Shown piece by piece: positions 5,082-39,813 of a stretch of 64,000 nt of DNA. The notes under the pieces were generated by a model. The model had not been told where the DNA came from and did no database searches. It saw only the letters and a program-made list of their open reading frames with translations. This stretch comes from Lachnospiraceae bacterium. GTDB lineage: Bacteria; Bacillota; Clostridia; Lachnospirales; Lachnospiraceae. The translations under genes and the position numbers were made by a program. The stretch is taken from contig SVFQ01000017.1 of the NCBI GenBank assembly GCA_015056765.1, positions 1 to 64,000 on the forward strand. The letters run 5' to 3'. Numbering within the stretch: position 1 is the first letter of the stretch; each line of letters opens with the position of its first letter.

Positions 5082-6071
5082 TTAATCTCCGCCAAGGCCG
5101 CTTCGTTCTACGCCTTGTACAAATCGTTTCTGAACAAACATGTACATAATCAAGAGCGGTAAAATCGTCAGGAATGCACATGCGGATGCAACTGCTGTCT
5201 GTACATATGGGGATTCATACTCCACTACGTACTTGCTTGGAACATATTTCTCAATGTCCATAATCGCCCAGCGCATGTTGTTTTGAATCTGCACCATACG
5301 CAATGGCAGTTGTAACTTATTAGAACTAAGCAGGGATACATAGTAGGTATCCGCATAGTTCCATACGAAGCTCAGAACTCCAACTGTCAACAGGGATGAA
5401 GAAATACCCGGTAAAACAATTCGGAAAAATGTCTTTAAAAATCCTGCCCCGTCCACGTAAGCTGCTTCTTCGATGGAAATCGGGAACTGTCTAAAGCTCT
5501 GTCTTAAAATGTAAATATACAAACCGCCTTTTACACCCATACCGGTAGCTGCCAAAATGTAGATTGCCACAGGTGAACCGATGAGGTTGATAGGGTTTCC
5601 CGTAATCGTCTGTACGATATGGAAGATATCAAAGTTGCGGAATGTAATGTACTGTGCCAGCATAACGGACTGAGGTGGCACAATGATGGTAAATACCACG
5701 ATGCCAAACAGTAAGTTACTACCTTTGAATTTGAGTCTTGCAAAGGAGTATGCCGCAAGGGCTGCGCACAAAGTCTGTAAAAACGCCAGCACTGCCGTGT
5801 TACCAAGGCTGTATAAAAGGCCTTTCCAATAGTCCAGAATCAGAAATGCTTCTGAGAAAGACTGCAGGGATACAGCGGAAGGAATCCACACAGAGTTTTT
5901 TAGTCCTAAAGCATTCTGCGCTGTCAGGGCCTCCTTCAAGGTGCTGAAGATTGGTGTCAAAATCACAAATCCCAAAGAAATGAGAATTGCATATCTTAAG
6001 AATCCCAACAGGAATCCTAAAACTTTTTTGCGAATCGCATAGGGGCTTACATTTTTGTATTTATTTATCAT
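5082..6071 (-). CDS. CUT1 sugar ABC permease (MalG type), permease D of module 1
   Basis: A 329-residue inner-membrane permease with about six transmembrane segments. The cytoplasmic ATPase-docking loop is present as EEAAYVDGAGFLKTFFRIVLP-like sequence near residue 200. A tail of about 25 charged residues precedes the first membrane segment. It overlaps the preceding permease gene by 11 bases, suggesting translational coupling of a heterodimer. Its best match within the window is the permease at 38803-39813, the same position in the paralogous module. No ATPase gene is present nearby, so a shared MsmX/UgpC-type ATPase encoded elsewhere is expected. The substrate cannot be read directly; the downstream enzymes suggest a mannose/galactose/fucose-containing oligosaccharide. 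Confidence 0.93.
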   Translation of the reverse strand: MINKYKNVSPYAIRKKVLGFLLGFLRYAILISLGFVILTPIFSTLKEALTAQNALGLKNSVWIPSAVSLQSFSEAFLILDYWKGLLYSLGNTAVLAFLQTLCAALAAYSFARLKFKGSNLLFGIVVFTIIVPPQSVMLAQYITFRNFDIFHIVQTITGNPINLIGSPVAIYILAATGMGVKGGLYIYILRQSFRQFPISIEEAAYVDGAGFLKTFFRIVLPGISSSLLTVGVLSFVWNYADTYYVSLLSSNKLQLPLRMVQIQNNMRWAIMDIEKYVPSKYVVEYESPYVQTAVASACAFLTILPLLIMYMFVQKRFVQGVERSGLGGD

Positions 6072-6939
6072 AGTAGAACACCCCTTTCGATACGATAGCT
6101 GACAGTACCAGGATGACGAAGATACTTACCAGGAAGTACACTGCACTCATAGCAGCGCCAAGGCCGTACTGTGCATTGGTAAAGGTAGTGGTACTAATCA
6201 TCTGGGAGATGTCTGCTCTGGCAAAGCTATCTGCCAGGGAGTAAATCATACATACCAGGATCATTGGAGAGATCATAGGCAGTGTGATTTTACAGAAGCA
6301 TTCAAACTGACTACAGCCCTCGATTTTTGCCACTTCATACAGGGATGGGGAGATGCTCTGAAGTCCGGATAGGAAAATCAGCATCTGCACACCTGCTGTG
6401 GTAATGACATCAAAGATATCATTGACGAATACCATAATGTAGTTGATGAATACGCTGGGGATTCCGCTACTATTCAGGATATTGGTTACCCCGGCTGTAT
6501 TGACAAAAGATTCGGATGCTTCTTTTGCTAATGTGATATCCGCTAATTCCAGCTTGGTGATTCCCGTAGCCAAGATAATGGGCACGAAGAAAATCAGGCG
6601 GAAAAAGCCTTTTCCCTTGTACTCTCCATTTAGCAGCATAGCCACAAACAAAGAGACAAAGATTTGGATTGGTACGTTGCGTAAGGTCTCCGTCAACGCA
6701 GCCAATAATTTTTGATTAAATGCAGGATCTACGCGTAATGCATATTTGTAATTGCCAAGTCCTGTGAATTTGTAACTAAATCCTCCGGTAGCCAGTTCCA
6801 TCTCAAAAAAGGAATAATAGAAGGTTCTGACTAAAGGTCCCAGGAAGAATACTAAGATTCCGATTGCCCAGGGAAGCAGGAACAGGATGCCCCAGAAGGA
6901 TCGTTTCTGCGCATAGGTCATTTTCTTTTTTTCCTTCAT
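6061..6939 (-). CDS. CUT1 sugar ABC permease (MalF type), permease C of module 1
   Basis: A 292-residue permease with about six transmembrane segments and an ATPase-docking loop starting YEVAKIEGCSQFECFCKITLP near residue 200. The N-terminus (QKRSFWGILFLLPW) resembles its counterpart at 39806-40714, and both share the RVDPxxN segment after the first periplasmic loop and the GCxxxExxxKIT variant of the docking loop. It is 10 bases downstream of the DUF5696-like gene and overlaps the next permease by 11 bases. It presumably pairs with the permease at 5082-6071 as one complete channel, the second channel of this operon. Confidence 0.93.
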   Translation of the reverse strand: MKEKKKMTYAQKRSFWGILFLLPWAIGILVFFLGPLVRTFYYSFFEMELATGGFSYKFTGLGNYKYALRVDPAFNQKLLAALTETLRNVPIQIFVSLFVAMLLNGEYKGKGFFRLIFFVPIILATGITKLELADITLAKEASESFVNTAGVTNILNSSGIPSVFINYIMVFVNDIFDVITTAGVQMLIFLSGLQSISPSLYEVAKIEGCSQFECFCKITLPMISPMILVCMIYSLADSFARADISQMISTTTFTNAQYGLGAAMSAVYFLVSIFVILVLSAIVSKGVFYYDK

Positions 6940-6949
6940 TGGCTCCTCC

Positions 6950-9445
6950 TTACTTCATTAGATAATCATGTGCCGGAACGGTTACGCCGGCAATCTCTGC
7001 ATCTTCATCTCCATAATTCAGATATACCTTTACGCCGTTGTCATAAGTGACAATACGATGTAAGTTATCTCTGTTTTCGATTTCATGGTTTACGATGCTG
7101 GCACCTTTTACCTTTTCGTAGTAGGTGCTGTATTTCTCATAGCAGGTGGCGATACTGTCTTTCCACAGGTCGTATTCTGCGAAGAATACATTCTCCTGCG
7201 TAGTCTCGTTCAGTACAGAAGTATCTCCTGCCATCAATCTAAAGTTCAGCGCACTTCCGGATTCGATGGCTTTCATATAGGAATCTCCCAAAGCCTCTAA
7301 ATCACGGTTGATATAAGCACTGCCATAGACTTTGTGACCGCTTAAGACCATTTGGGTAAATGGCACCCAAGCATCTAAGACTTTCATCTGGCTGTTATCC
7401 AATGGCAGGTCACTGATGATGTCTGCATCTTTATAAGCCGTCACTGCCGGATTGGAAAGCATCAGATTATAGTCTGTAGACAGCTTCTCCAGTCCCGCTG
7501 CATACTCCGTCATAGCCGTTGTAGTTGAGATGTTTGCTTTATTCCGATAATCTCCCTGGAAGAAGGTGTAGAAATCGGAACTTGCCAAATTGTCTATACC
7601 AAGCTTTCCATAAGACTGATCAAACTTTCCAATATAGCTTTGCAGATAAGTAGGTGCTATATAGTAAGTTTTGTATGGGTCATCTTTCTTTGGCTCTCTT
7701 TTTACCAAGTCGAAGCGATTGCGGATTGCCAAGCTTCCTGCCAAAGTGTAGGAGCGCTCTTTCTTGGAAAGATGTTTTGCTGTGCAAGCTGTCTGCAACT
7801 GCACAGATGGGAAAATCTGTGCACCTGTCTCCTGTGCTGTCTTCTGCAGACTCTGTAAACCTTTCTTACCGCCTAACACAGAAGAAACTTTCACAGATTC
7901 TACTGCTCTTTGATTCAGGCCTCCGTTTACCATACCTTCGTATTTGGCCAGTACATTACCGGCGCCTTCTGCAGATAAATCTTTCAGAATCTCTTCTGCC
8001 TGTGCGAAGGTAGTTAGTGCCACAGAGCTCTGATAAGGAACACCAAGGAAGTATTTTTCTTTATCTACTTCGCCTAGGAAATCCACAAAGAGTGGTGCTT
8101 TTTCCGGTGCCTCCAGTTTCTGCAACACGCCCTGATCTACCAGGTATTTCTGGTAGGACTTAGCCATACCACTGTAGTTTGCATCATCCCCTGTCAGGAA
8201 TTTATAACGAAGTCTGATATCTCCTGTGTAGAAATCCGTAGGCACTTTATTCAAAGTAAAGTTATTGGTGGATCCTACGTAAGAAGATAAGGTCTGTTCT
8301 TTGCGTATATAAAAGCTTAAAGATGCTCTGGCATAATCGATTCCGCTAAAGTAGCCTTTCATGTAGGTATTAAGTTCTGCGATTTCTGCGCCGCTTTCGA
8401 TAATACCCAGAGTAGCCATGTCGCCGGATTTCATACCGTAAACCGGAAGCATCATGGAAGTAGGACTTGCATCATATACTTCCGTGTCTGCCAGCACATC
8501 TCCTCCATAATAGAAGGAAGTGTATCGATACTCTGCTAACTTGTCATTATCCAGATACAGGAGAGCACCACTTCCATCCGGTACGAATAGATAACCATCC
8601 TTTTCGTTGGAGGACATGAAATAAGGCAGTACATCCAAAGATCTCATAGGAAAATCTTCATTGGATGTAAGATACTGGGTAGGGATATTCACTACCAGGT
8701 CCCCATTATCCAAAGTGTATTCCACCACCATATGAATGGTCTGTGTACTTGGTAGTTCGTCTAACTTGTCATACTCTGTACAATCCGCTTCCAATTCTTC
8801 GTAGGTATAATGACCAACTTCGTAGAAAAGGTTATACAGTTCCGGTGCTGCCTTACCGGAAAGAGGATTATCCTTGCCTTTCTTTCTGGCAAGTACGCCG
8901 CTCTTTGTTTTACGATACTGTTTCATAACAGTCTTTTGCTGTTTTTCATCGCAGTACTGCAAAACCAAATCTTGTAATCTCTCCGGCGTAATATACGCAG
9001 GGAAGTTTTTATAAGATACGGAATCCGATCCGAGACTATAGACGAATCGTACGCCGTTATCCATTTTTTCGTAGGTTACGGATTCATTTTCAAATCCGTA
9101 GCTGTGGGTATCCATAGAGGTGTAACTGGTGTACTTCTTGGAGTCTTTTCCATCGAAGTAGTAAGCCACTACATCCGACAATGCTGTAGTATCTTTCAGG
9201 TCTGTTTCTGCCTTTGTGGTATCTAAGTACTCTCCCGTCTTTGTATTTTCCCAACGAAGATTTCCCGTGGTAGGCAGAAGCTCTAATTTCATATCGCCGC
9301 TTTCTGCCACCGTCACATATTTCTTTCCGGAGAAATCAGACTCTGCTTTGCCTTCGTAGGCCTGGGTGGTTTTCTGCTCCACCGCGCCGCATCCGGTCAA
9401 AAGAAGGGCAAGGCTCATCAGCAAAAGTATTTTTTTATGTTTCAT
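6950..9445 (-). CDS. DUF5696-like surface lipoprotein, glycosidase-like architecture
   Basis: An 831-residue lipoprotein: signal peptide with lipobox LLLTGC, lipidated Cys19. Residues about 45-300 look like an N-terminal beta-sandwich (MKLELLPTTGNLRWENTKTG), ending in DGYLFVPDGSGALLYLDN (283-300). A mixed alpha/beta stretch from about 450 to 770 contains a conserved NGGLNQ motif (507-512) and a SSDFYTFFQG block, and the end is a small beta domain (NGVKVYLNYGD). Sandwich, barrel-like centre and small beta domain resemble the three-domain layout of several glycoside hydrolase families, but I cannot name catalytic residues. It matches my recollection of DUF5696 proteins, which occur beside Yip1-domain proteins and sugar permeases in Paenibacillus and Lachnospiraceae. 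The paralogue at 40727-43330 shares PxGxGA, NGGxNQ and SSDFY. Function unknown; surface binding or trimming of glycan is inference. Confidence 0.75.
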   Translation of the reverse strand: MKHKKILLLMSLALLLTGCGAVEQKTTQAYEGKAESDFSGKKYVTVAESGDMKLELLPTTGNLRWENTKTGEYLDTTKAETDLKDTTALSDVVAYYFDGKDSKKYTSYTSMDTHSYGFENESVTYEKMDNGVRFVYSLGSDSVSYKNFPAYITPERLQDLVLQYCDEKQQKTVMKQYRKTKSGVLARKKGKDNPLSGKAAPELYNLFYEVGHYTYEELEADCTEYDKLDELPSTQTIHMVVEYTLDNGDLVVNIPTQYLTSNEDFPMRSLDVLPYFMSSNEKDGYLFVPDGSGALLYLDNDKLAEYRYTSFYYGGDVLADTEVYDASPTSMMLPVYGMKSGDMATLGIIESGAEIAELNTYMKGYFSGIDYARASLSFYIRKEQTLSSYVGSTNNFTLNKVPTDFYTGDIRLRYKFLTGDDANYSGMAKSYQKYLVDQGVLQKLEAPEKAPLFVDFLGEVDKEKYFLGVPYQSSVALTTFAQAEEILKDLSAEGAGNVLAKYEGMVNGGLNQRAVESVKVSSVLGGKKGLQSLQKTAQETGAQIFPSVQLQTACTAKHLSKKERSYTLAGSLAIRNRFDLVKREPKKDDPYKTYYIAPTYLQSYIGKFDQSYGKLGIDNLASSDFYTFFQGDYRNKANISTTTAMTEYAAGLEKLSTDYNLMLSNPAVTAYKDADIISDLPLDNSQMKVLDAWVPFTQMVLSGHKVYGSAYINRDLEALGDSYMKAIESGSALNFRLMAGDTSVLNETTQENVFFAEYDLWKDSIATCYEKYSTYYEKVKGASIVNHEIENRDNLHRIVTYDNGVKVYLNYGDEDAEIAGVTVPAHDYLMK

Positions 9446-9462: not shown

Positions 9463-11541
9463 TTATAGATAATACAAACTAAATTCATTCCAAATGGTCA
9501 TCATGTCATTGATGAAGGAGCTTCCAAGGGTGACAAACAGTACAATGATAAAGATCAAAATACCCATAGCCACGATAGAAAGCAGTACGGATCCGATGCC
9601 CTTCGTAAAGGTGAATTGATGAATCATCAAAAGACCGATGAAGGCATAAAGTACAAACAATACCGTAGGGAATGCAAACAGGAACTGCACAAAAAGCGCT
9701 TCTTCCTGAATAATAATTCTGGATAAAACCGTACCAATCAGGTACAGGTAAATGGATGGATATAAAGAATATGCCGTAACCTTAAAGATATTCTTCATAT
9801 TACCTTTACCGTCGATTAAGGTACCTATTGCCCAGTTACCGATGATAAACAGCAGGTATGGTACCAGTGTGCTGACAAGTACCAATGGTACGTTTACTTT
9901 TTCTGTATTTGCTCTGTTTACCAAGAAACCGGAATACTTGGTCATAATCAGTTTCGACCAGGTAAAGAGGACGAAAATCAATACGCCAAACTTCACACTA
10001 CCGGCATCTTCATATTTCACATCATCAAAGGCTTTGAAAGGATGAGAAATCACATAGCCCGGCCATGTAAATGCCGTGTATTTGATTTTCTTCCATTTCT
10101 TTACGAAACTACTTTCTACATAACCTTCCTGAGAAGCTTTTTTCTGATACTGCTTCTTCAAAACTTTGATGACTACAATCAAAAGGATGATGCCTAAGAG
10201 GATGTACGCAAAGCCTTGATTCAAGGCTTTTTCTCTTACCTGCTCATAGGCAGTGGAGTAGCTTTCTCTTTCGCCGCATGCCTTGAAGTGCTTCATGGCA
10301 TTTTCGAAATCTCCATTACGAAGTTCCCATTTGCCAAGTCCTACATTGGCTGCAATCAAATGTGGATTGATGTCATATACCTGCTGCCAATAGGGATAAG
10401 CAGCCTCATAATCATACTGTCCTTGATGGTCTAACGCAGTATTGATGAGAGCACCATATCCGGTAGGTTCAAAAACTTCGATGGTCTTGGAGACCAGATC
10501 TGCTACCAGGATTTTATCTCCCATAAAGCAGACATCTACCGGGCTGTTTAAGGAGCCGGTCTGCTTGCCGATACCACCTAAGGTATAGAGGAGCAGTGCG
10601 TCTTTACTATAGACGAAGATTCTGCTTCGATTGCTGTCTAAGACAGCGAATCTACCATCTGCTGCAGTGGCGATGTTTACCAGCTGACTGGTGATGCTGG
10701 TACCGATGGTCAAATCACCCATAGCCGGGTAGATGGTATCGTATTCCGGCATGATGTCACTACCACCGGCATTTAGTCTTCGAATGGGGCTGGATGTTTT
10801 ATTATCTTTGACAGTCGCCATGAGGAAACCGTCTGCATCCAAAGCGATATCACTATAGTCTGTAGGGAGCCATAATGCCATACGCGCTTTCTGCTCTTTT
10901 GTGGCAATCAATCTGTAGAATCTGTCGATGAAACTAGGCTCTACCTGATTGGCACCTACGAATCTGGAGTAGTCTCCCTGGGGAGTCAGCTCAATGATAC
11001 CTTCGTATACGCTCTTTGCTTTTACATAGATTCGATCATTTCTGTCCACTACCACTTTAGTAGGCTGGAACTTTAGAGATTCCATGCCGGTGATTTCCGG
11101 GTTGGTGATGGTTCTCTTCCAGGTTCCCTGCTGGTCAAATTCCAAAATCTGACCTTTTGCTTCTTCGCAGACATAGATGCTGCCTTTCTCTGTCACATAG
11201 ACACAGGTAGGACTGGCAATAGATGCCTCGCCCTTGTCTGTCTTATATGCTGTAATGCTTTGAATCAATTGAAAGTCTTCATCCAGGATGGCGATTTCGC
11301 CTGTCATAGCCACATAGATTTTATGATCCCGGTAGAATACATCTGTGATTCCGTCAAATCCACTGATTCCCGCATCGCTGCCTCGTACACTCTTTTTCCA
11401 CTGATAAGCATCCGGTTCCGGCACCGGTCTCATCCAAATGTCATAGCCATAAGACTGGGCATTTGCTTTTACCGGAAAAGCGGTAGCCAAAGTAAAAAGG
11501 CACAATATGAAAATCAGTATTCTTTTTGTCATTTGCTTCAT
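9463..11541 (-). CDS. NHL-propeller/TPR/Yip1 fusion membrane protein of module 1
   Basis: A 692-residue protein with a cleavable signal peptide (residues 1-28, ending in VKANA). Residues about 50-360 form NHL-type propeller repeats (PTKVVVDRNDRIYVKA; SPVDVCFMGDKILVADL). About 364-430 is a TPR-like helical pair (AAYPYWQQVYDINPHLIAANVG and the following helix). A membrane helix lies at 443-461, followed by a basic linker and from about 490 a Yip1-type polytopic domain with about five membrane segments and a GNWAIGTLIDGKG motif (568-580). The sensor-like propeller should be outside and the Yip1 domain in the membrane. In the paralogous module the same protein is encoded as two genes (44010-45524 and 43346-44005), which supports a physical link between the two halves. 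Role unknown; an assembly or sensing role for the importer is inference. Confidence 0.82.
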   Translation of the reverse strand: MKQMTKRILIFILCLFTLATAFPVKANAQSYGYDIWMRPVPEPDAYQWKKSVRGSDAGISGFDGITDVFYRDHKIYVAMTGEIAILDEDFQLIQSITAYKTDKGEASIASPTCVYVTEKGSIYVCEEAKGQILEFDQQGTWKRTITNPEITGMESLKFQPTKVVVDRNDRIYVKAKSVYEGIIELTPQGDYSRFVGANQVEPSFIDRFYRLIATKEQKARMALWLPTDYSDIALDADGFLMATVKDNKTSSPIRRLNAGGSDIMPEYDTIYPAMGDLTIGTSITSQLVNIATAADGRFAVLDSNRSRIFVYSKDALLLYTLGGIGKQTGSLNSPVDVCFMGDKILVADLVSKTIEVFEPTGYGALINTALDHQGQYDYEAAYPYWQQVYDINPHLIAANVGLGKWELRNGDFENAMKHFKACGERESYSTAYEQVREKALNQGFAYILLGIILLIVVIKVLKKQYQKKASQEGYVESSFVKKWKKIKYTAFTWPGYVISHPFKAFDDVKYEDAGSVKFGVLIFVLFTWSKLIMTKYSGFLVNRANTEKVNVPLVLVSTLVPYLLFIIGNWAIGTLIDGKGNMKNIFKVTAYSLYPSIYLYLIGTVLSRIIIQEEALFVQFLFAFPTVLFVLYAFIGLLMIHQFTFTKGIGSVLLSIVAMGILIFIIVLFVTLGSSFINDMMTIWNEFSLYYL

Positions 11542-11546
11542 ATTGC

Positions 11547-12449
11547 TTACTCCTTCATACCGGATGTTGCCATGGTAGAGATTACGTTGGTCTGCATCAT
11601 CAAAAAGACAGATACAGGAATAATAAATACTACTACGGTAGCTGCAGCCAGGACACCTGCTCTGGCGATACCGACTGTGGTACCACTGGCAAGCTGTGAA
11701 AGTGCATAGGCCACGCTCTTTAGCTTCTCTGTGTAAATATATTTGTCACCGGTGTTGGTCCACAGTGCCTGGAATACCAGGATGAATGCTGTAACAGCTG
11801 CCGGTTTTACCAAAGGAAGCATAATCTTCATGTGCACCTGGAACTGACTGGCGCCATCGATTTTCGCTGCCTCTATCAAACTATCCGGAATCTGTTCCAT
11901 GAAGTTGATCATCAGGTAAAGACCCAGTGTAGAAGCAAACTGTGGGAAGATGATGGCCCAATAGCTATCAATCAAATGCAGTTTGGAAATGGTGATAAAG
12001 TTTGGCACCATGGTTACGGTGGCATTGAACATCAAGGAGTACACAATCATCTTGGAGATGAATTTGGATCCCGGGAAGGTGTACTTTGCCAGGGGATACG
12101 CACACATAGATGCGATAAGGATGTGCCCCACCGAGCCGATTCCCACTACAAAGAGGGAGTTAAATAAATAGCGGCTAAAGGGAATCAAAGTGTTGTTCAA
12201 TACGCTGGCCAAATCCCTGAAGTTATTCAAGGTAGGATTTCGTACAAAGAGCTTTGGTGGGAACATATACATTTCATTTAGTGGCTTCAATGCCTGGTTA
12301 AACATATAGATAACCGGGAAGAAGAATAAGAAGCCCAAGATGAAAAGCACAATGCCCATAAGCAGATTGCCCATGAAGCTTCTGCTGCTCTTTCTTGCCG
12401 AACTTTTCATATCCAGTTTGTTATTTCGTCTGTGTATTTTTGCTCGCAT
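11547..12449 (-). CDS. CUT1 sugar ABC permease (MalG type), permease B of module 1
   Basis: A 300-residue permease with six predicted membrane segments and an ATPase-docking loop IEAAKIDGASQFQVHMKIMLP-like near residue 195. The N-terminus has a basic cytoplasmic tail (MRAKIHRRNNKLDMKSSARK). The counterpart at 45543-46418 shares ALKPLNE/ALKPLDE, the PPK(L/I)F segment, NFMEQIP/QFMEGLP and an identical IEAAKIDGA. It ends 5 bases before the NHL-Yip1 gene and begins 14 bases after its partner permease (12464-13369), so the two form the first channel of the operon. Confidence 0.93.
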   Translation of the reverse strand: MRAKIHRRNNKLDMKSSARKSSRSFMGNLLMGIVLFILGFLFFFPVIYMFNQALKPLNEMYMFPPKLFVRNPTLNNFRDLASVLNNTLIPFSRYLFNSLFVVGIGSVGHILIASMCAYPLAKYTFPGSKFISKMIVYSLMFNATVTMVPNFITISKLHLIDSYWAIIFPQFASTLGLYLMINFMEQIPDSLIEAAKIDGASQFQVHMKIMLPLVKPAAVTAFILVFQALWTNTGDKYIYTEKLKSVAYALSQLASGTTVGIARAGVLAAATVVVFIIPVSVFLMMQTNVISTMATSGMKE

Positions 12450-12463
12450 TTTATATCTCCGGA

Positions 12464-13369
12464 TCAGGTTCCTACTTTGGATAAGAACTTTTGGAATACC
12501 AGGTTACAGAAAATCATAATGAGGAACAGGAGCACTGCTATGGCGCTGGCGCGTCCCATCTCCATACGAATCAAACCATAGTCATTTAAGTGGTTTACGA
12601 TGGTATGGCTGGCATATCCCGGGCTTGGGAAGCCTACCAGGGCATCTGCTACACCACCTACGCTGAGTGCGGAAGTGATGGACATAACCGCACCAAACAT
12701 CAGCTGAGGCTTCATGTTTGGCAAAGTAACATACCATAATTCCTGCCAACGGTTACGGATACCATCGATGGCTGCTGCTTCATACTGTGCTTCATCCACG
12801 CCTTTGATACCGGCAACGAAGGACAAGAAGCCTACGCCAAGGCTCATCCAGACGGATACGATGATAACCACCGGGAGAATGTAGTTCTTATCTGCAAGCC
12901 ATAGGATTTTCTCCGAAATGATGCCATTCTTTAGGAGGATACCATTTAAGTAACCGGTAGCATCATTGGAGAAAATGAGGCCAAAGATTACGACTGCATT
13001 TCCAGCCATACTTGGTGCATAGAAAACCACTGTTAAAATCGTTCCAAGCCAGTGTGGAAGTTCATTGATCATCCACGCCAGCAGGAAGGAAAGGATATAT
13101 CCGAAAGGACCTACGAACACGGCGATGATGAAGGTGTTCTGCAGTGCCTTGATGAAGATTGTATCCTCTAAAATCAATTTCTTGTAATTCTCAAGGCCGA
13201 TGAATTTCGCCGGCTCTAAGATGTTGTAATCCGTGAAGCTATACCAGATAGCCTGCAGTACCGGATACACCACAAAGGTAACGAAAAAGAGTAGGAACGG
13301 GAGCATCATCAGATACAAGGTCTTATTCTTTTTCATTTCCAGCCATGTGATTTGTGCTTTCTTTTTCAT
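12464..13369 (-). CDS. CUT1 sugar ABC permease (MalF type), permease A of module 1
   Basis: A 301-residue permease with six predicted membrane segments. The docking loop is unusual: EAAAIDGI is followed by RNRWQELWYVTLPNMKP instead of the common short loop, and the counterpart at 46408-47346 has an almost identical sequence (GIKNRWQELWYITLPNMKP). This shared loop marks both proteins as one sub-type. Other shared blocks are GPLGYILSF/GPFGYILSF, FAWLINELP/LAWMINELP and SLGxGFLSFVAG. The gene begins 12 bases after the giant binding protein gene. As elsewhere in the module there is no ATPase gene. Confidence 0.93.
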   Translation of the reverse strand: MKKKAQITWLEMKKNKTLYLMMLPFLLFFVTFVVYPVLQAIWYSFTDYNILEPAKFIGLENYKKLILEDTIFIKALQNTFIIAVFVGPFGYILSFLLAWMINELPHWLGTILTVVFYAPSMAGNAVVIFGLIFSNDATGYLNGILLKNGIISEKILWLADKNYILPVVIIVSVWMSLGVGFLSFVAGIKGVDEAQYEAAAIDGIRNRWQELWYVTLPNMKPQLMFGAVMSITSALSVGGVADALVGFPSPGYASHTIVNHLNDYGLIRMEMGRASAIAVLLFLIMIFCNLVFQKFLSKVGT

Positions 13370-13381
13370 GCCCGCTCCTTT

Positions 13382-16279
13382 CTATTTGGTAAGTCCAAAT
13401 TCTTTTCGTTTGTTACTTATTTCTTGATCTATGTAGTGAATGTTCTTATACAAGGTATCTACAGGATCTGTTTTGTCGTTATATACCTCTAAGAAAGAGT
13501 TCTCTACATATCGACCGGAGATGTATCCGCCGGGTACCTGAGGTACACCTCTCAGATTCTGCATTGCGCTCTCTACTTCTGCTTTCAGTCCCAGATTATC
13601 CGCTGTCTCCAGTGCAGCCTCTGTATTGGCTACCGGTACAGTACCTGCATCACCCAGTACAGAACGAAGTTCCTTGGAGTATGCGGACTGGGTTTCTTTG
13701 CTGGTCCACCATTTCAGGAAATCCCATGCTTCCTCTGCGGTGCCATTTTTCTCCACGCTGTTTTTCAAAATCATGGAGCCGCTGACAGTAGCAGTAGCGG
13801 TATGATCTACCGTACCATCTGCCTGCTTGGTGCCCGGGATTGGTGCGATACCCCAAAGTCCATCGATTTCCGGTGCTGCCGCCATGATATCCAGAATATA
13901 GGTGTAGTCCTCGATAATCAGTGGTGTCTGTCCGGTACGGAATCTGGTTACCACGCTGATGGTCTGCTCAAAGTTCTGTTTTGTATAGTATTCTGTCCAC
14001 TTCTTGAAGGTCATAAGTGCTTCATTGGAGCTTAAGGTGGACTTGGTGTTATCTTCTGTGTAAAGTTCCATGCCGTTTTGATACAGCAAGGAGTTAAATA
14101 CTGCATTTACCGGTTTGGTGGAAGTAGAACTCTGTCCACCCAGGAGTCTGTAACCTGTCGTGGTAAAGAAGCAGGACATATTGTCAGCCTGTAAGTATGG
14201 AATCATAGCTTCCAAATCTTCCCAGGTTTCCGGCACATCCAGATGCATTTGTTCTAAGATGTCCTTACGGTAAAACAGTACCGGGTAGCTCAACATATCC
14301 GGCAGTGCATAATAACCGCCCTGGTACTCAAAGTACTCCATACCCGCCTTCGGGAATCTGTCTGCTACTTCTTTAAAATCACTAAACTGTGTCAGGTCAT
14401 AGCCTGCATGACGATAGGCAAAGTTGGTAGGCATGGTATAATTTAGCTGCAATGCCACATCCGGACCATTGCCTGTCAAGGTGGCCGGCATAACCGTATC
14501 TGCGCCTACCATCTTCAAATCTACCTGATAAGTGCTTCCATCAAAAGAACGCTCTATGAGTTTTTCCAATACATCGTACTGGTCTCTTGTAGCTGTTGCA
14601 ATCCAGACTTCAATCTTCTTCTGGTCTTTTGTGGTCTTTTTCTCTCCTACCTGATAATCATTGGTAAAGGAACCTATAAAGGCCATAAAACCATGTCCGA
14701 ATTTCTGGAAGAAATTACCTTCTGCTTTCGGAAGCTTCGCACCATCTCCTGTTACAAGAAGATAGTCTAAAGTCAGTGGCTGAGAATCCAGACTCAGCAT
14801 CCACTCACTGATGGCAGTGATATTATCATTGAAGGTCGATAACTGTTTGGAAATCTTATCCGGTGTTTCAATGAGGTCTTCTAACTGAAGCAGCATCTTT
14901 GCGATTTCTCTAGTCTTCGTACTGCTTTCTACCGTATCACCCAAAGACTCTACTATAGTGCTAAGTCTGTAGTACTCTGTTTTCATGACATCTTCCATGT
15001 CTGGCACCATGGTGGTGATGGCATAGTCACGATAGGGGTCAGGGCTGCTTCCCATCACCGCTGTCAATTCTCGATATAAACTATTGAAGGCTTTTACACT
15101 GATTTTGGTCTGCAGATAAGCATAGGACATATCTCCCATGTTTACTGTCATAGACAAGATGTTCTTGCCTTCTTCTAAATAGAAATAAAATGGCTCTCCT
15201 GCTTCATCTGACAGGTAAGACATTTGGAATCCGCTTTTATAAGGGAACTTGCAAAGGCTGGCCTCTGCAAATGGTACTTTTCCATTTACCTTTACTTCAC
15301 GAATGGAATAAAAGTCACGATTCATGGTCTGGGCATATCTGGTGGCAATGTGATACAAGCCGCTCTTTGGCACTGTCACTTCCCAGTTGATGGTAGCTCC
15401 TGCATCTGCCCAACTTTTTCCACCAACAGTGTTCATCACAATGTTGCTGGAATGGTGTGGCATGGTAAGCGGTGAGGTTCGATCATTCTGTGGCACAATC
15501 ATGGATAAGGATGTGCTTGCCAAGTCTTCTGCCTGCACGATGATAGAACCATTTTCTAAATCTGTGCTCTTTATTTTTTCAGCATCCTTGTGTGCTTCCA
15601 AAAAGTCTGCATAGCTTTTTAGTCCGGCGCTACCTTTGACTCTCAGAGTTACCAGTTCCATATCTCCTTCTACTTTGTGAAGGGAAATGGTATTTTCGCC
15701 TTTGTCTAACCACACCAGTAACGGTCCATCTACAGATTTTTCCGCTGCTTCAATGGTTTCGGTCAGCATTTCGCTTCCCTGTACAAGTGCAGGGCTTGCG
15801 TAGTTTCTGTCATTCTTCATTAAGAAGTCTTTGTTTTCCAACACCCAGGCTCTCTGAAAATCTACGCTTTCTGCCTGTGTATAAGGGATTTCCCCGTTGA
15901 TATATAAATCTCTGCGGACGCTTTTATCCGTATCCGTAGAAACATAATAGTCAGCTTCAAGTTCGTAATAGCCGGCTTTTTCCACCTGAATCTTGCAGGT
16001 TGCATCGCCGTTTTCATCAGAAATCAATTCTTCTCCGCCTACTGTGATTACTGCGGAAAGATTATCTGTGGCAGCACCGTGCTGCTCTTTATATTGTTCA
16101 TAAGTGATATGTTTGCTGCTTTTGTCGGTTAAGTCCACCGGTGTGGAAAGCAACGTCTGGCGCAGCACCTTGTTTCCCTGTTTATGGGAAATGGAGTTTG
16201 CTACTATAACCAGCACGATAATTGCTGCTATGAGTGATACCACTATTTTTTGAATTCGTTCTTTTTTCTTCGTAGTCAT
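13382..16279 (-). CDS. Giant membrane-anchored solute-binding protein with two CBM-like domains, module 1
   Basis: A 965-residue protein, about twice the normal size of a sugar-binding protein. Residues 11-30 form one hydrophobic anchor and no lipobox cysteine is present, so it should be held by an uncleaved N-terminal helix. Two beta-sandwich domains resembling CBM6/CBM35-type modules lie at about 65-215 and 245-395 (GYYELEADYYVS; GLYHIATRYAQT; each with an INGEIPY or VNGKVPF turn). A helical linker starts with SSPDPYRDYAI (411-421). From about 553 to 940 is a family 1 solute-binding domain (PDVALQLNY; YALPDMLSYPVLFYRKDIL; PETWEDL; the WDFLKWW block). The homologue at 47371-50319 has the same layout. 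It probably captures polysaccharide chains through the CBM-like domains and presents them to the channel; that is inference. Confidence 0.88.
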   Translation of the reverse strand: MTTKKKERIQKIVVSLIAAIIVLVIVANSISHKQGNKVLRQTLLSTPVDLTDKSSKHITYEQYKEQHGAATDNLSAVITVGGEELISDENGDATCKIQVEKAGYYELEADYYVSTDTDKSVRRDLYINGEIPYTQAESVDFQRAWVLENKDFLMKNDRNYASPALVQGSEMLTETIEAAEKSVDGPLLVWLDKGENTISLHKVEGDMELVTLRVKGSAGLKSYADFLEAHKDAEKIKSTDLENGSIIVQAEDLASTSLSMIVPQNDRTSPLTMPHHSSNIVMNTVGGKSWADAGATINWEVTVPKSGLYHIATRYAQTMNRDFYSIREVKVNGKVPFAEASLCKFPYKSGFQMSYLSDEAGEPFYFYLEEGKNILSMTVNMGDMSYAYLQTKISVKAFNSLYRELTAVMGSSPDPYRDYAITTMVPDMEDVMKTEYYRLSTIVESLGDTVESSTKTREIAKMLLQLEDLIETPDKISKQLSTFNDNITAISEWMLSLDSQPLTLDYLLVTGDGAKLPKAEGNFFQKFGHGFMAFIGSFTNDYQVGEKKTTKDQKKIEVWIATATRDQYDVLEKLIERSFDGSTYQVDLKMVGADTVMPATLTGNGPDVALQLNYTMPTNFAYRHAGYDLTQFSDFKEVADRFPKAGMEYFEYQGGYYALPDMLSYPVLFYRKDILEQMHLDVPETWEDLEAMIPYLQADNMSCFFTTTGYRLLGGQSSTSTKPVNAVFNSLLYQNGMELYTEDNTKSTLSSNEALMTFKKWTEYYTKQNFEQTISVVTRFRTGQTPLIIEDYTYILDIMAAAPEIDGLWGIAPIPGTKQADGTVDHTATATVSGSMILKNSVEKNGTAEEAWDFLKWWTSKETQSAYSKELRSVLGDAGTVPVANTEAALETADNLGLKAEVESAMQNLRGVPQVPGGYISGRYVENSFLEVYNDKTDPVDTLYKNIHYIDQEISNKRKEFGLTK

Positions 16280-16306
16280 TAGCCTTAACCCTTGTTCTCT
16301 TTCTTC

Positions 16307-16348
16307 AAAAAAGGACTACGCCTTATTCCGCGGAATGAAGACGTAGCC
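16307..16348 (-). terminator. Hairpin with T-tract between binding-protein genes (attenuator)
   Basis: In the 89-base gap between the small and giant binding-protein genes, an imperfect stem pairs 16313-16320 with about 16341-16348, and an inner perfect palindrome (ATTCCGCGGAAT) forms the top. On the minus strand the stem is followed by six T residues (16312-16307). This is a Rho-independent terminator. Because the downstream genes have no other visible promoter, it probably acts as a partial terminator giving the small binding protein more transcript than the rest. Confidence 0.8.
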
Positions 16349-16368
16349 CCTCTTACTACTTCAAATCT

Positions 16369-17829
16369 TTAAAATCCAGCATCTTTCAGTTTAGCTTTAC
16401 CTTCATTTTCATAGGATTCCATAGTAGATCTAGCATCCTTGAATCCTGCTAAAACATCCTGTACACCATCCCAAGCTTTGATCAGTTCAGCAGAGTCCAT
16501 GCACCAGCTTAAGTCTGGCTGGAATCTGGAGTGTGCCCAGTCATAAAGCTCGATATCTTCATCTGTATAGAAGCTTCTGGATTCACCGTATTCTTTACCG
16601 TATACTGTGTAGTTACCTTCTTTTTCTTTCTCGTATGCTTCGTGCATCCAGTCGATACCATCATCTGTTACAAGTGCTCTGTAATCATAAGCGATTTTGG
16701 TAAGCACTTCACCAGGGATACCTGTTTTGTCTACAGATGCTTTTACTACACAGTCAACACCCCAGTAAGAAGTATTTACTTTGTAGTTATCGCTTAACGT
16801 AGTATAGTCGCCATCGCATGTTACGTTGGAGCCCCAAGGCCAGTAGCAGATACCATAGTTGAATTCAAGTCCGCCAAGCTGCCAGGATTCTGCTCTCTTT
16901 AATACGATTCTGTCATCATCTACTGCGTAAGCTGTATCCAGTTCTTCTTCCCCTTCTTCATTAGTACCTACAGACTGAGGATAAGCAAGACCTTCTTTTT
17001 CCAGTTTCTGATAGAACTCAAGCGCTTCGATTGTTGCATCGTTTGTTAAGTTTAAGTTACCTTCATTGTCTGCCAAAGCTACGCCGTTTGCACCAGCTGC
17101 CATGGAAGCCCAGTGATATGGGTAGTTACCGATAGGATATACACCATCAGGAAGTTTGGATTTCATTTCTGTCAGATAAGCTTCAAAGCTATCGTAATCC
17201 CATTTACCTTCCATAAACATTTCAGTAGGAGTTTTCTCCATACCGATTTCTTTTAACAAATCTCTGTCGTAAACAAGTACCCAAGAATCACCCAAGTTAT
17301 CATAAGAAATACCATAGCATCTTCCCTGCCAAGTTCCAGCGTTAGTATAGATAGAGCCTACCTGGATTTCGTCCAGATAATCTGTGATATCAAAAAGGAT
17401 ATCGCCGGTATAGCAAGCGATGAGGGATTCCGGATTTAGAGTGATGATATCTGCTGCAGGATCGCCTGCTGCTACAGAAGCGATCAAAAGATCGTCATCA
17501 TTGTATCCGTCATAACCATCCATAGCTGCTTTTTCCAACTTGATGTTGTACTTTTCTTCGATTTCAGCTTTTGCGTCTACGTATTTCTGATCTTCACTGT
17601 CTAAGTTGTTCCATTCACTACCGAATGCTTTTACAGTTACCCCGCCGAAGTCATAGGTTTCTTCCTCTGCTTCAGTTGTTTCAGCTTCAGCAACTTCTGT
17701 TGCAGGAGCTTCTTCAGACGCTGCAGGAGTATCTTCTGCAGGAGCCTGAGTTGTTGTATTGCCGCAAGCTACCAGACCAAGAGTCATGGAAGCAGCCAGT
17801 AATACAGATGCTACTTTCTTTAACTTCAT
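16369..17829 (-). CDS. Lipoprotein sugar-binding protein of ABC importer, module 1
   Basis: A 486-residue extracellular solute-binding protein with a signal peptide and lipobox GLVAC (lipidated Cys22), followed by an acidic, alanine/threonine/glutamate-rich linker (about 25-60). The rest fits family 1 binding proteins: LIASVAAGDPAADIITLNPE, FDITDYLDE and AYDYRALVTDDGIDWMHEAY. It should bind an oligosaccharide and deliver it to permeases of the operon. It is the first gene behind a strong promoter (17915-17943) and has an optimal ribosome site (GAAGGAGGG, 6 bases before the ATG). A terminator-like hairpin follows, consistent with a higher copy number than the downstream proteins. Confidence 0.93.
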   Translation of the reverse strand: MKLKKVASVLLAASMTLGLVACGNTTTQAPAEDTPAASEEAPATEVAEAETTEAEEETYDFGGVTVKAFGSEWNNLDSEDQKYVDAKAEIEEKYNIKLEKAAMDGYDGYNDDDLLIASVAAGDPAADIITLNPESLIACYTGDILFDITDYLDEIQVGSIYTNAGTWQGRCYGISYDNLGDSWVLVYDRDLLKEIGMEKTPTEMFMEGKWDYDSFEAYLTEMKSKLPDGVYPIGNYPYHWASMAAGANGVALADNEGNLNLTNDATIEALEFYQKLEKEGLAYPQSVGTNEEGEEELDTAYAVDDDRIVLKRAESWQLGGLEFNYGICYWPWGSNVTCDGDYTTLSDNYKVNTSYWGVDCVVKASVDKTGIPGEVLTKIAYDYRALVTDDGIDWMHEAYEKEKEGNYTVYGKEYGESRSFYTDEDIELYDWAHSRFQPDLSWCMDSAELIKAWDGVQDVLAGFKDARSTMESYENEGKAKLKDAGF

Positions 17830-30910: not shown

Positions 30911-32395
30911 TTATTTTGCAGCGATGAAAGCATCAACCTGAGCCTGCGCTTCATCGATAACATCCTGAAGACCTGCTGCTTCTAATTCAGCTTTCATTTC
31001 AGGAATTGCTTTTTCAGGATCACTGGTACCTGTTGTGATTTCACTCTTGTATCTGGACCAGATTTCTGTGCAGTTAGCCAGCTGATCTGCTACATTTGTA
31101 GAATCAAAGGTAAAGCCAAGAAGAACAGAAGGAACTGCTTTCTCGTTTAATTCTTTTACTTCATCCCACTGATTGAATTCATCACTTGCAAGTGGTGTTA
31201 CAGTAAAGAAGGAACCCTGCGTATAACCAGCCATTGTCCAAGGATTGGTTTCGGTGTTGATTTTCTCTACCTTGCCATCTGCTGTGTACTGGAAGTTTAC
31301 GCCTTCTTCACCATAGTAGAATAAGTCTCTCATCTTAGGATCTGTGTTTACTAAGTCAAGGAACTGCAAGCATTTCTCAGGATACTGAGTATTAGCGGAT
31401 ACCATGTTCAAGGAACCTCTAACTGTATCGTTGGAAAGGATCGTCTCACCAACCTGAGATACAACTACCTCTTTGCCCATGTCAGGACCCCAAGCTGTCT
31501 TAGCAGCACTTGGCCAGCCCTGCGCAACTCTCCACATGTTGTAAGAACGGCCTTCTGTTGCTGTAGCAGCATCTGTGTTGATGATACCGTCTGTATACCA
31601 TTCGTGAATTGTCTTTAATTCGTTCATGATGTCTTCCTGTTCTACGTTGAGAACAACTTTTGCATCCTTGTCATCATAACGAACACCAAGGATCTGAAGA
31701 CCTGCACCCATCTGATCGTATTTATCAAAGATGTAGTATAAACCATCATTCTTTACAAATACAGGATAATCATTTTTGTCAGCTTTTAAAGTTTTGAAGA
31801 TTTCTGTCTTTGCATCCAGAGATTTTGCCATAGCATCGATATCGATGTTGTACTCATCTACCAGTTCTTTATCCCAAATATCATAGTTGGATAAGGAAGA
31901 ATCCTTGTAAGTAGGTACGCCGTAGATTTTGCCATCTACCGTAACTGCCTGCCAGTATTCTTCCGGCATCAGCTGCATTAAGCCAGGCATATTGTCTTTT
32001 ACTAAATCTGTGATGTCGTAGTAAGCGCCAAGCTGAATATCAGATACGAAATTGTTACCATTACCGAAGATGATATCGTATGGCTCGTTGGTGCTGATAA
32101 CGATGTTTCTTCTGTTATCCCAATCACCCCAAGAGATAACTTCCATGTCGATGTTGACACCGATTTTTTCTCCCGCATAGTCATTGACCTGTTTTACCCA
32201 GGAATCATAGTTGTCAGGCATACCGGATCCGATGGTTACCCACTTCAATGTAACGATGTCTCCGTTGTCTGCAGCAGTTGCCTGAGCATCTGTTCCTGCA
32301 TTTCCGGTCTGCTCAGCAGCGCCGGTGTTGCCGCATCCTGCCAAGCTAGATACAGTCATAGCTGCAGCAAGAAGCAATGCGATTTTCTTTTTCAT
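30911..32395 (-). CDS. Lipoprotein sugar-binding protein of the region B importer
   Basis: A 494-residue solute-binding lipoprotein. The start at 32395 is chosen because a full AAGGAGG site lies 9 bases upstream; the in-frame ATG at 32416 is itself just before that site. The signal peptide (KKKIALLLAAAMTVSS) ends in LAGC. The mature part has family features (LKWVTIGSG; NDYAGEKIGVNIDMEVISWGDWDNRR; YDIIFGNGNNFVSD; YWQAVTVDGKIYGVPTY; CLQFLDLVNTD), closest in style to the YtcQ/LplA-type binding proteins that pair with YteP/YtcP permeases. It is the third gene after the promoter, followed by an attenuator hairpin. Substrate unknown; the co-transcribed alpha-mannosidase suggests a mannose-containing glycan. 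Confidence 0.93.
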   Translation of the reverse strand: MKKKIALLLAAAMTVSSLAGCGNTGAAEQTGNAGTDAQATAADNGDIVTLKWVTIGSGMPDNYDSWVKQVNDYAGEKIGVNIDMEVISWGDWDNRRNIVISTNEPYDIIFGNGNNFVSDIQLGAYYDITDLVKDNMPGLMQLMPEEYWQAVTVDGKIYGVPTYKDSSLSNYDIWDKELVDEYNIDIDAMAKSLDAKTEIFKTLKADKNDYPVFVKNDGLYYIFDKYDQMGAGLQILGVRYDDKDAKVVLNVEQEDIMNELKTIHEWYTDGIINTDAATATEGRSYNMWRVAQGWPSAAKTAWGPDMGKEVVVSQVGETILSNDTVRGSLNMVSANTQYPEKCLQFLDLVNTDPKMRDLFYYGEEGVNFQYTADGKVEKINTETNPWTMAGYTQGSFFTVTPLASDEFNQWDEVKELNEKAVPSVLLGFTFDSTNVADQLANCTEIWSRYKSEITTGTSDPEKAIPEMKAELEAAGLQDVIDEAQAQVDAFIAAK

Positions 32396-32463
32396 AAGAA
32401 AAATCCTCCTTTTCATACCTTCCTTTTATCTATTGAATCAGCAAAGCTGTTCAATTCTTTTTG

Positions 32464-33378
32464 TTAACCCTTTACAGAACCGATGGTAAGACCGGTAATG
32501 AAATACTTCTGGAAGAATGGATATACACAGGCAATCGGTAAAATGATGACGATTGCGATGGCCATTCTCACGCTCTCCGTCGGCATGCTTGCTTTGTACT
32601 GCTGTAAGGACAAGCCGCCGTATGGATTGTTGGCGATATACTCGATATTGTTCTGAATATTATTCAGCAAAGACTGCAGAGACTGCAGATTCTGTTTGGA
32701 GATATACAAGGATGCCTGGAACCAATCATTCCAATATCCAAAGGCTGCAAACAGTCCGATGGTTGCCAAAATCGGTTTGGAAATCGGCAACACAATCTGC
32801 AGGAAAATTCTAAGCTGGCTTGCGCCGTCCATCTTAGCCGATTCCACGATGGAATCCGGGATGGTGGTTTTAAAGAATGTCTTACAGATGACTACGTTGA
32901 AAGAGGATACAGCCAGAGGCAAAATAAGCGCCCAAATGGTATCTCTTAAATGCAAGATATTTGCATTCACGACGTAGCTTGCCAGCATACCGCCGTTGAA
33001 AATCATAGGAATGAATACCACCCAGGTATAAAACCCTTTCAAAGCGTAGGTATTTCTGGAAAGTACATATCCCATACTGGTGGTCAAAAGAACCGAAATC
33101 ACAATACCGATGGCGGTTACCAGCACGGAGATGAAAAGCGCATGTAAAATGGTACCTCTCTCATTCCACAGGAACTGATACGCAGATGCAGATAGTTCTG
33201 TCGGAATGATCTGATATCCGTATTTCTGAATCCCCGCCTCGCTGGAGATGGAAATGGAGAAAACGAATACTACTGGGAATATACATAACAGGGAAAGCAG
33301 GATAAACACCAGGTTAAAGAATGCATCCGTTCCCTTACTGATCTGATTTAAATTTCTGACTTTTTCCGGTTTACTCAT
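32464..33378 (-). CDS. CUT1 ABC permease (YtcP/LplC type)
   Basis: A 304-residue permease with six predicted membrane segments, a long extracytoplasmic loop after the first one (GYQIIPTELSASAYQFLW) and the docking loop VESAKMDGASQLRIFLQIVLP near residue 205. The large loop and the GxxxxxGSVKG-like C-terminus (TGLTIGSVKG) fit the YtcP/LplC group. It lies between its partner permease and the binding-protein gene (68 bases upstream of the latter). Confidence 0.93.
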   Translation of the reverse strand: MSKPEKVRNLNQISKGTDAFFNLVFILLSLLCIFPVVFVFSISISSEAGIQKYGYQIIPTELSASAYQFLWNERGTILHALFISVLVTAIGIVISVLLTTSMGYVLSRNTYALKGFYTWVVFIPMIFNGGMLASYVVNANILHLRDTIWALILPLAVSSFNVVICKTFFKTTIPDSIVESAKMDGASQLRIFLQIVLPISKPILATIGLFAAFGYWNDWFQASLYISKQNLQSLQSLLNNIQNNIEYIANNPYGGLSLQQYKASMPTESVRMAIAIVIILPIACVYPFFQKYFITGLTIGSVKG

Positions 33379-33406
33379 ATTGAATCCTTCTTTATTTCTG
33401 ACTGAC

Positions 33407-34372
33407 TTAGATAATGGCGCTGTCGTCGTCCACCTTCTTTACAACCCAGTTAGCAAACAGGATTGTGCAGCAGCAGCATACGGACTGGAAGAAAGATGCC
33501 GCAGCAGTTTTTCCAATAGGTGCTGTAGACTGAATCGCTTTGTAAATGTAAGTATCAAAGGTAGATACCGTGGTGTATAAGGACTGTGGAATGGCTCCTG
33601 TTACCTGGTAGAACAAACCAAAGTCTGAGTAGAAAATCTTACCGGTATCCAGAATCAGCATCATAATCAATACTGTTTTGATGCAAGGCATGGTAATGTA
33701 TTTTGCCTGTTGCCATTTGGTAGCGCCGTCCATGACAGCTGCTTCATATAAAGATGGGTCGATGCCCGTAATGGCTGCCAGGTAGATAACCATACCATAT
33801 CCCATGCCCTTCCAAATCTTCATAAAGGTTAGGAAGAAAGGCCAGTACTGCGGAGACTGATACCACATCACTTTCTCGTGTCCGAAGAAAGTAAGTAGTG
33901 CATTCAAGTAGCCTTTGTCCGGTGTCAGGATGGCGTACACGATGTAACTAACCACTACCCAGGACATAAAGTGCGGGAAGAACATCATGGTCTGATATAC
34001 TTTAGAAACCTTTTTGCTTCTTAAGTTACTCAGCATCAAGGCAAATCCCACCGCTACCGTTGCTCCTAATATAATGAACACGATGTTGTACAGGATGGTA
34101 TTTCGAAGCAACATCATAAAGGCATTGGATTTAAAGAAGTAGTTGAAGTTGGACCAGCCCACCCACTTACTATGGAATAAGCTGTACAGAAAGCCATGGC
34201 GTCCTGATAACTTATACTCCTTAAAAGCAATGATGATACCAAACATGGGTAAATAAGAGAAAAGCACAAACCATATAAAGGTAGGTAGTGAGATTAGGGT
34301 TAAGTCCAAATCATCTCTGGTAAATTTCTTTTTCTTGCTTTTAGGTCGTGCCATTGCTGTTGTTTTCTGCAT
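33407..34372 (-). CDS. CUT1 ABC permease (YteP/LplB type)
   Basis: A 321-residue permease, first gene of the region B operon. The signature of the YteP/LplB group is clear: LISLPTFIWFVLFSYLPMFG (residues 27-46), IIAFKEYKL, FFPHFMSWVVVSYIVYAIL and the docking loop YEAAVMDGATKWQQAKYITMP. A basic N-terminus (KTTAMARPKSKKKKFT) precedes the membrane part. A consensus promoter and GTTAAC motifs lie upstream, and the ribosome site GGAGGAAG is 2 bases from the ATG. Confidence 0.93.
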   Translation of the reverse strand: MQKTTAMARPKSKKKKFTRDDLDLTLISLPTFIWFVLFSYLPMFGIIIAFKEYKLSGRHGFLYSLFHSKWVGWSNFNYFFKSNAFMMLLRNTILYNIVFIILGATVAVGFALMLSNLRSKKVSKVYQTMMFFPHFMSWVVVSYIVYAILTPDKGYLNALLTFFGHEKVMWYQSPQYWPFFLTFMKIWKGMGYGMVIYLAAITGIDPSLYEAAVMDGATKWQQAKYITMPCIKTVLIMMLILDTGKIFYSDFGLFYQVTGAIPQSLYTTVSTFDTYIYKAIQSTAPIGKTAAASFFQSVCCCCTILFANWVVKKVDDDSAII

Positions 34373-38802: not shown

Positions 38803-39813
38803 TTACATCTTGATACCGGACATACTGATACTTTCTACGAACGCTCTTTGCGCGAAAAGGTAGAGAATAATCAGCGGAGCCACAATCATCAAGGTTCCTG
38901 TAGATAGAATACAGTTGGAATACGCTACAGAGATGGTGGTCTTTACACCGTTGATTCTCTGAATGTAAGCACCTAAACTATCTACGATTCTGGATAATGA
39001 AGTACTCAGTAACTTCGTGTTTCCTAGGAACAATCTGGAATAGAATCCATCTGTCCACTGCCATACAAAGGCAAACAGGAAACAGGATGTTAAAATCGGT
39101 TTTGCCTGTGGAAGCATGATGCGGATAAAGGTTTTAAAAGTACCGCATCCATCTACATAAGCCGCTTCTTCTAAGTCTACCGGAATATTTCTAAAGAACT
39201 GTCTAATCATGTAGATGTACAAACCGTTCTTTAATCCCATACAACCGGCGCTCATCAGGAAGTAAGGAATCTTAGATCCTCGGAGGTTAATCCCTTCTCC
39301 CTTGATCAATGTGATAATGCCCAGCACATCGAAATATCTGAAGTGTAAGTGCAAAGAGCTGGCAATGGTCTGGGGTGGTACTAAGATCACAAGCAGTACG
39401 CAAGCAAACCAAAACTTTTTCAAAGGAAACTCAAATCTGGCAAATCCATAACCCACGATGGTACACATGGCAATCTGCAACAGTGCAATGGCAAGGGAAA
39501 TGGTAAAAGAGTTAAAAAGGGATGTCTTATAACTCATCAGTTCCGCTGCCAGATTGTAATTCGCTGTTGTAAAATGCTGTGGAATCGAGATGACAACCGG
39601 ATTGTATAAATCCTGCTCTGTCATAAAGCTGACGGAAATCTTATTCAGTAATGGCTGTAAAATCATAAAGCACATACCAAAGAGCAGGATAAATCTTAAA
39701 ATGCTGGCTGCTCTTTTGCTGACTTCTTTTTTCAGCAAATATCCGCCGGAAGCTTTATTCCTTTCCCAGAATCCAAGCTGGGTGTATGTACGCTGCTTTT
39801 CTGCTTTAGTCAT
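38803..39813 (-). CDS. CUT1 sugar ABC permease (MalG type), permease D of module 2
   Basis: A 336-residue permease with an N-terminal cytoplasmic tail of about 35 residues, six predicted membrane segments and the docking loop EEAAYVDGCGTFKTFIRIMLP near residue 215, nearly the same as in the module 1 counterpart (5082-6071). It overlaps the preceding permease gene by 8 bases. Shared blocks with the counterpart include LVPPQTIAS/IVPPQSVML and the GLKNGLYIYMIRQFFR/GVKGGLYIYILRQSFR region. Confidence 0.93.
   Translation of the reverse strand: MTKAEKQRTYTQLGFWERNKASGGYLLKKEVSKRAASILRFILLFGMCFMILQPLLNKISVSFMTEQDLYNPVVISIPQHFTTANYNLAAELMSYKTSLFNSFTISLAIALLQIAMCTIVGYGFARFEFPLKKFWFACVLLVILVPPQTIASSLHLHFRYFDVLGIITLIKGEGINLRGSKIPYFLMSAGCMGLKNGLYIYMIRQFFRNIPVDLEEAAYVDGCGTFKTFIRIMLPQAKPILTSCFLFAFVWQWTDGFYSRLFLGNTKLLSTSLSRIVDSLGAYIQRINGVKTTISVAYSNCILSTGTLMIVAPLIILYLFAQRAFVESISMSGIKM

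Follow-up and report, generated by a model that had tools for sequence, protein, structure and literature searches.

Two long sugar-binding proteins share one architecture

To our knowledge, Gram-positive bacteria of the gut and rumen lack a SusCD system, and less is understood of the way in which they retain and import large glycans. The stretch of DNA analyzed here, a 64,000-nucleotide window of a Lachnospiraceae genome (contig SVFQ01000017.1, positions 1 to 64,000), encodes two solute-binding proteins (SBPs) of about 970 residues, and the question is what such proteins do and with which genes they belong. Both open reading frames were present with ATG starts, at 13382 to 16279 (965 amino acids [aa]; operon 1) and at 47371 to 50319 (982 aa; operon 2), and these, like all operon features located below, lie on the minus strand. 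The two proteins are full-length paralogues with 33% identity in an end-to-end alignment (31% by BLASTP), and each begins with a hydrophobic helix, continues with two CBM35/CBM6-type sandwiches and a four-helix region that bears a conserved motif, and ends in a CUT1-type SBP domain. Pfam, profile and model data thus agreed with the first-pass annotation, which had read both loci as encoding an SBP of about 970 residues with two CBM-like domains.

The C-terminal part of each protein matched SBP_bac_8 in Pfam, with E values of 5.6e-17 in operon 1 (residues 552 to 963; 13391 to 14626) and 4.3e-23 in operon 2 (47374 to 48603), and the SBP_bac_1/8 scores were 62.9 and 82.9 bits, respectively, versus a curated cut-off of 27. 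When the modeled SBP part of the operon 1 protein, a model of modest confidence, was compared with solved sugar-binding proteins, VIA Z scores reached at most 26.1 (365 residues, 3.7 Å), the best match being the two-lobed SBP fold of 5ysb. Domain score and adjoining BPD_transp_1 permeases with an EAA loop, together with the two-lobed fold of the operon 1 model, place both long proteins among the CUT1-type SBPs. They resemble CUT1 oligosaccharide-binding proteins such as Lin1841 (PDB 5ysb) in this C-terminal fold and in the two neighboring permeases, but differ from them in length (about 970 versus 400 to 550 residues, with about 550 extra N-terminal residues), in the absence of a lipobox in Lachnospiraceae and in having fixed companion genes.

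For the N-terminal domains, the annotation had allowed that some fold other than that of a CBM might emerge; they were predicted to form CBM35/CBM6-type sandwiches. In Pfam, CBM_35 matched one sandwich of the operon 2 protein above the gathering score (29.8 bits versus 28) and the second sandwich of the operon 1 protein below it (23.5 bits; E = 7.5e-5), and all further CBM35/CBM6 matches in the two proteins also scored below it; CBM_35 matches at E ≤ 0.01 were found in 20 of 21 family members. A family profile built from the N-terminal part matched CBM35 chains of known structure where each of the two sandwiches lies. An AlphaFold model of residues 30 to 560 of the operon 2 protein, built with 70 relatives, had a mean pLDDT of 86 and a pTM of 0.82, and its first sandwich (residues 68 to 231; 49627 to 50118) matched the CBM35/CBM6 structures 4qb2 and 4qaw with a VIA Z of 13.9 (123 residues, 2.2 Å); the second (residues 253 to 389; 49153 to 49563) was placed by family profile and model. 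The full-length model of the operon 1 protein was weak (mean pLDDT, 62.9; pTM, 0.45) but still repeated the strand pattern of both sandwiches, the helical region and the order of elements. Because of this low confidence, the first sandwich of the operon 1 protein (about residues 77 to 216; 15632 to 16051) was assigned mainly by homology to the operon 2 protein, and the second (about residues 245 to 381; 15137 to 15547) was placed by the CBM_35 match and the model. The predicted fold is of the CBM35/CBM6 type, firmly so for the operon 2 protein and less firmly for the operon 1 protein, and on the strength of that fold the sandwiches may bind glycans. Likeness to CBM35/CBM6 members (4qb2, 2w47, 2vzp and 2cdp) extends to the sandwich fold, with Z scores of 13 to 14 over about 120 residues, and to profile matches; unlike those members, the sandwiches described here, known from fold and sequence, are fused to an importer receptor instead of an enzyme, and the first of them carries a long conserved insert. 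Comparison with a viral structure library gave no usable match.

The helical linker with an SPDxYRDYxI motif that had been noted earlier was recovered as a four-helix region in both proteins, spanning about residues 384 to 498 in operon 1 (14786 to 15130; motif SPDPYRDYAI at 15017 to 15046) and 48799 to 49146 in operon 2 (motif SPDVYRDYHI at 49033 to 49062). The family form of the motif is T(G/S)xxPDxxRDYx(L/I), and PDxxRxY was present in 47 of 55 diverse sequences.

The N-terminal helix looks like a membrane anchor in Lachnospiraceae

In the 80 Lachnospiraceae relatives compared, the N terminus consisted of 19 to 21 apolar residues flanked by K/R; in the operon 1 protein, the sequence places this helix at about residues 10 to 28 (16196 to 16252). 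A lipobox occurred in 1 of the 80 and was absent from the operon 1 protein, and no AxA cleavage site was found C-terminal to the hydrophobic helix among the 80 N termini. A regular expression for AxA did match in 23 of them, and these matches were not counted as cleavage sites, since the examples inspected lay inside the hydrophobic core. Likewise, LAAC in the operon 2 protein was not accepted as a lipobox, its cysteine being located within the helix and not conserved. Judged by sequence, then, the Lachnospiraceae helix looks like an uncleaved membrane anchor. Outside this set, 43 homologues were compared, of which nearly all belong to other families of the phylum; 34 of them had a signal-peptidase-I-like AxA site close to where the helix ends, and tethering is therefore probably a local, lineage-specific variation and not a family trait. 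As the N terminus looks cleavable in most other lineages, the tether would not be essential to the design, and the protein would need some other means of staying at the cell there. The fixed membrane arm on an uncleaved helix, as first annotated, accordingly fits Lachnospiraceae and does not fit most homologues from elsewhere.

Each operon encodes two permease pairs and two SBPs

Reading from each long SBP gene, the order was permease A, permease B, NHL/TPR, Yip1, DUF5696, permease C and permease D. In operon 1, Pfam identified permeases A (12464 to 13369) and B (11547 to 12449); these are followed by a 692-aa fusion of NHL propeller, TPR, transmembrane (TM) segment and Yip1 found by domain search (9463 to 11541), a DUF5696 lipoprotein recognized by Pfam and profile (6950 to 9445), permease C (6061 to 6939) and permease D (5082 to 6071). 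In operon 2, permeases A (46408 to 47346) and B (45543 to 46418) are followed by separate genes for an NHL propeller protein with TPR and a C-terminal TM segment (44010 to 45524) and a Yip1-family membrane protein (43346 to 44005), then by DUF5696 with an N-terminal helix anchor (40727 to 43330), permease C (39806 to 40714) and permease D (38803 to 39813). Fusion of NHL/TPR with Yip1 was found again elsewhere in Bacillota and supports the view that the two form a physical pair. EAA-type loops, present in all eight permeases although degenerate in permease C of operon 1 (EVAKIEG), mark them as importers.

A lipoprotein SBP adjacent to the long one, as originally annotated, was seen in operon 1 (16369 to 17829; 486 aa; Pfam; lipobox LVAC), where it lies upstream of the long SBP gene. 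In operon 2, that direct neighbor is a GH10 enzyme with the lipobox LTAC, and the lipoprotein SBP (37247 to 38722; TGC lipobox) belongs to the same operon but lies at the downstream end of the cassette. The gap between the two SBP genes of operon 1 contains a terminator-like hairpin with a T run (16306 to 16352; −24.8 kcal/mol; z = −4.6), likely an expression valve that would let the mobile lipoprotein SBP be made in excess; such excess is a feature of many SBP-permease operons. A third CUT1 importer, comprising a DUF3502 SBP and two permeases, was located at 30911 to 34372, without cassette partners.

The cassette is conserved as a unit across Bacillota

In Lachnospiraceae, the eight genes kept order and strand at all 64 loci for which 9 kb or more of downstream sequence was available. 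All eight genes were also found in 17 of 26 distant Bacillota stretches; most of the remaining stretches either met a contig or stretch edge or had the permuted order C-D-SBP-A-B, and two (L126 and L127) had SBP-A-B without other cassette genes alongside. In a phylum sample of 398 genomes, 45 were matched and 40 had a long SBP after removal of five genomes of family f18, whose short SBPs match the SBP part alone and were dropped from the long-SBP counts. DUF5696 was present in 37 genomes of this sample, all 37 within the 40 with a long SBP. In a family sample of 250 genomes, 51 had a long SBP and 54 had DUF5696, with all 51 shared. The naive hypergeometric probability of this co-occurrence, which ignores shared ancestry, was about 1e-49. 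The cassette was thus carried by roughly one tenth of the sampled phylum genomes and one fifth of the sampled family genomes, named carriers being Butyrivibrio fibrisolvens D1 (plasmid pNP243) and Paenibacillus cellulosilyticus, in which the ATPase gene ugpC lies directly 5′ of the long SBP gene. The unit is not a single protein beside an importer, as first proposed, but a cassette of eight to nine genes, recurrent across Bacillota, in which two sugar importers are combined with a protein resembling glycosidases and with a putative scaffold in the membrane.

Two side observations concern these samples. Genomes of family f18 encode several clustered SBPs of about 430 to 510 aa without DUF5696 (for instance, at 621 to 16260 of L137 [G007]). 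In P. cellulosilyticus, the cassette is followed by several genes for flavin oxidoreductases of the LLM class and by a further SBP gene (L156, 23933 to 28556), so that the substrate in this species may be something other than a plain plant glycan.

The cassette divides into two modules

Covariation was assessed by partial correlation of pairwise protein distances at 59 complete loci. The genomes concerned are related, all belonging to a single family, and the pairwise distances are not independent. At these loci, the long SBP correlated with permease A (partial r = 0.30) and permease A with permease B (0.37), while permease C correlated with D (0.30) and the lipoprotein SBP with both D (0.49) and C (0.28); between the long and the lipoprotein SBP the value was −0.03. 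The cassette thus divides into one module of long SBP and permeases A and B and another, separately evolving, of permeases C and D and lipoprotein SBP. The NHL/TPR-Yip1 and DUF5696 genes are placed between the two, and DUF5696 distances followed those of the long SBP (0.33), NHL (0.47) and permease C (0.27). That the two SBPs might be rivals for one permease pair did not hold, since each operon has a second pair, C/D, with which, and not with A/B, the lipoprotein SBP covaries.

We also compared loci with and without a GH10 xylanase gene as a neighbor. Conservation of the long SBP (75% versus 73%) and of permeases A and B (about 89% versus 88%) hardly differed, whereas that of the lipoprotein SBP fell from 64% to 49%. 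Substrate-related change therefore appears concentrated in the C/D module.

DUF5696 is a probable distant relative of GH129-like glycosidases

The DUF5696 profile matched GH129-like DagB (5opq and the 8rzg series) with an E value of about 1e-13 in three collinear blocks (N-terminal, barrel and C-terminal) and, weakly, the GH129 enzyme NagBb (E = 0.12). Among Pfam enzyme families, PF18952 was the sole match of DUF5696 proteins, with none to GH129; a search of 199 genomes for GH129 (PF11308) sequences on which DUF5696 catalytic residues might be mapped gave no match, nor did its control, and so carries no weight either way. Residues conserved over 39 DUF5696 sequences were mostly glycines and aromatics, D356 being the only acidic residue above 93%. 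DUF5696 would, on this profile evidence, be distantly related to GH129-like glycosidases and a putative enzyme. DagB is a GH129-like 3,6-anhydro-D-galactosidase (PDB 5opq) that its authors proposed as a family of its own (PMC5698469). DUF5696 differs from it in being membrane anchored and linked to importers and in lacking a Pfam GH129 match.

Neighboring genes point to different glycans for the two operons

The neighbors of operon 2 include GH10, GH43, GH5 and esterase-GH43 genes, from which its substrate class was read as xylan. A carboxylesterase-GH43 fusion is encoded in this neighborhood at 54792 to 57590. Around operon 1 (350 to 30837) we found genes for GH130, GH35, a BT_1020-like propeller, GH20, GH3, a CBM9 protein and GH38. 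The glycosidases of this set (GH130, GH35, GH20, GH3 and GH38) make an N-glycan-like or other complex glycan a possible target of operon 1, and the set as a whole suggests a mannose/galactose/hexosamine-rich glycan such as an N-glycan.

The long SBP as a candidate receptor of importer A/B

The long SBP, whose gene invariably sits immediately ahead of those for permeases A and B, is probably an extracellular sugar receptor dedicated to importer A/B within a double CUT1 ABC-importer cassette. In Lachnospiraceae, the N-terminal helix would keep it in the membrane, where its SBP domain, possibly aided by the sandwiches, would catch oligosaccharides and pass them to permeases A/B, while the lipoprotein SBP would serve permeases C/D and a shared MsmX/UgpC-type ATPase would power both importers. 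NHL/TPR-Yip1 and DUF5696 may join the two importers at the surface; we infer such an envelope assembly, which would handle one glycan class per operon: xylan in operon 2 and a mannose/galactose/hexosamine-containing glycan in operon 1. Counting against this reading are the two stretches with SBP-A-B alone (L126 and L127), the cleavable-looking N termini of most other lineages, the relatedness of the genomes behind the distance correlations and the weak model of the operon 1 protein. A bolder and more tentative version makes the cassette a single stable surface machine, in which a pair of ABC importers, a CBM-bearing receptor fixed to the membrane, a second, mobile receptor and a GH129-like enzyme would share an NHL/TPR-Yip1 platform, as a possible Gram-positive counterpart in purpose of the SusCD-type complexes for glycan uptake in Bacteroidota.

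The sandwiches and helical region might instead bind no glycan and act as a scaffold for assembly, docking the SBP to DUF5696, to NHL/TPR or to the permeases, so that the SBP domain alone would meet sugar. Long SBP conservation that is independent of GH10, beside the drop in the lipoprotein SBP, would suit a scaffold, as would the close tracking of DUF5696 distances and the equal conservation of the second sandwich and the SBP domain across the phylum (42% versus 43% identity); lineages with a signal peptide would, moreover, need a partner that holds the long SBP at the cell. We nevertheless consider a pure scaffold somewhat unlikely, since the fold is CBM35/6, known members of which bind sugars, and fold-forming residues are expected to be conserved under either role. 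Much less credible is the narrow form of the original proposal, a free-standing tethered glycan-catching arm next to an ordinary importer, in which NHL, Yip1 and DUF5696 would be passengers unrelated to it: architecture and tether were indeed seen in Lachnospiraceae, but the fixed gene order throughout the phylum and the near-perfect co-occurrence with DUF5696 argue strongly against it.

The cassette is of more interest than the long SBP alone: a receptor that carries CBM-like domains of its own and is tied to an eight-gene block points to an undescribed uptake machine, and the cassette offers a testable job for DUF5696 and the Yip1/NHL proteins. Literature searches, covering mainly open papers and no preprints, returned no published account of the eight-gene block, no paper on DUF5696 and nothing relevant on Yip1/NHL together with importers. 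A related arrangement is Athe_0595-0598 of Anaerocellum bescii, a CUT1 importer with one permease pair for two SBPs and its ATPase, MsmK, encoded elsewhere (PMC12838199). The cassette shares with it two SBPs per glycan locus and an ATPase encoded elsewhere, but here the two SBPs covary with separate permease pairs, and NHL/TPR, Yip1 and DUF5696 are present in addition.
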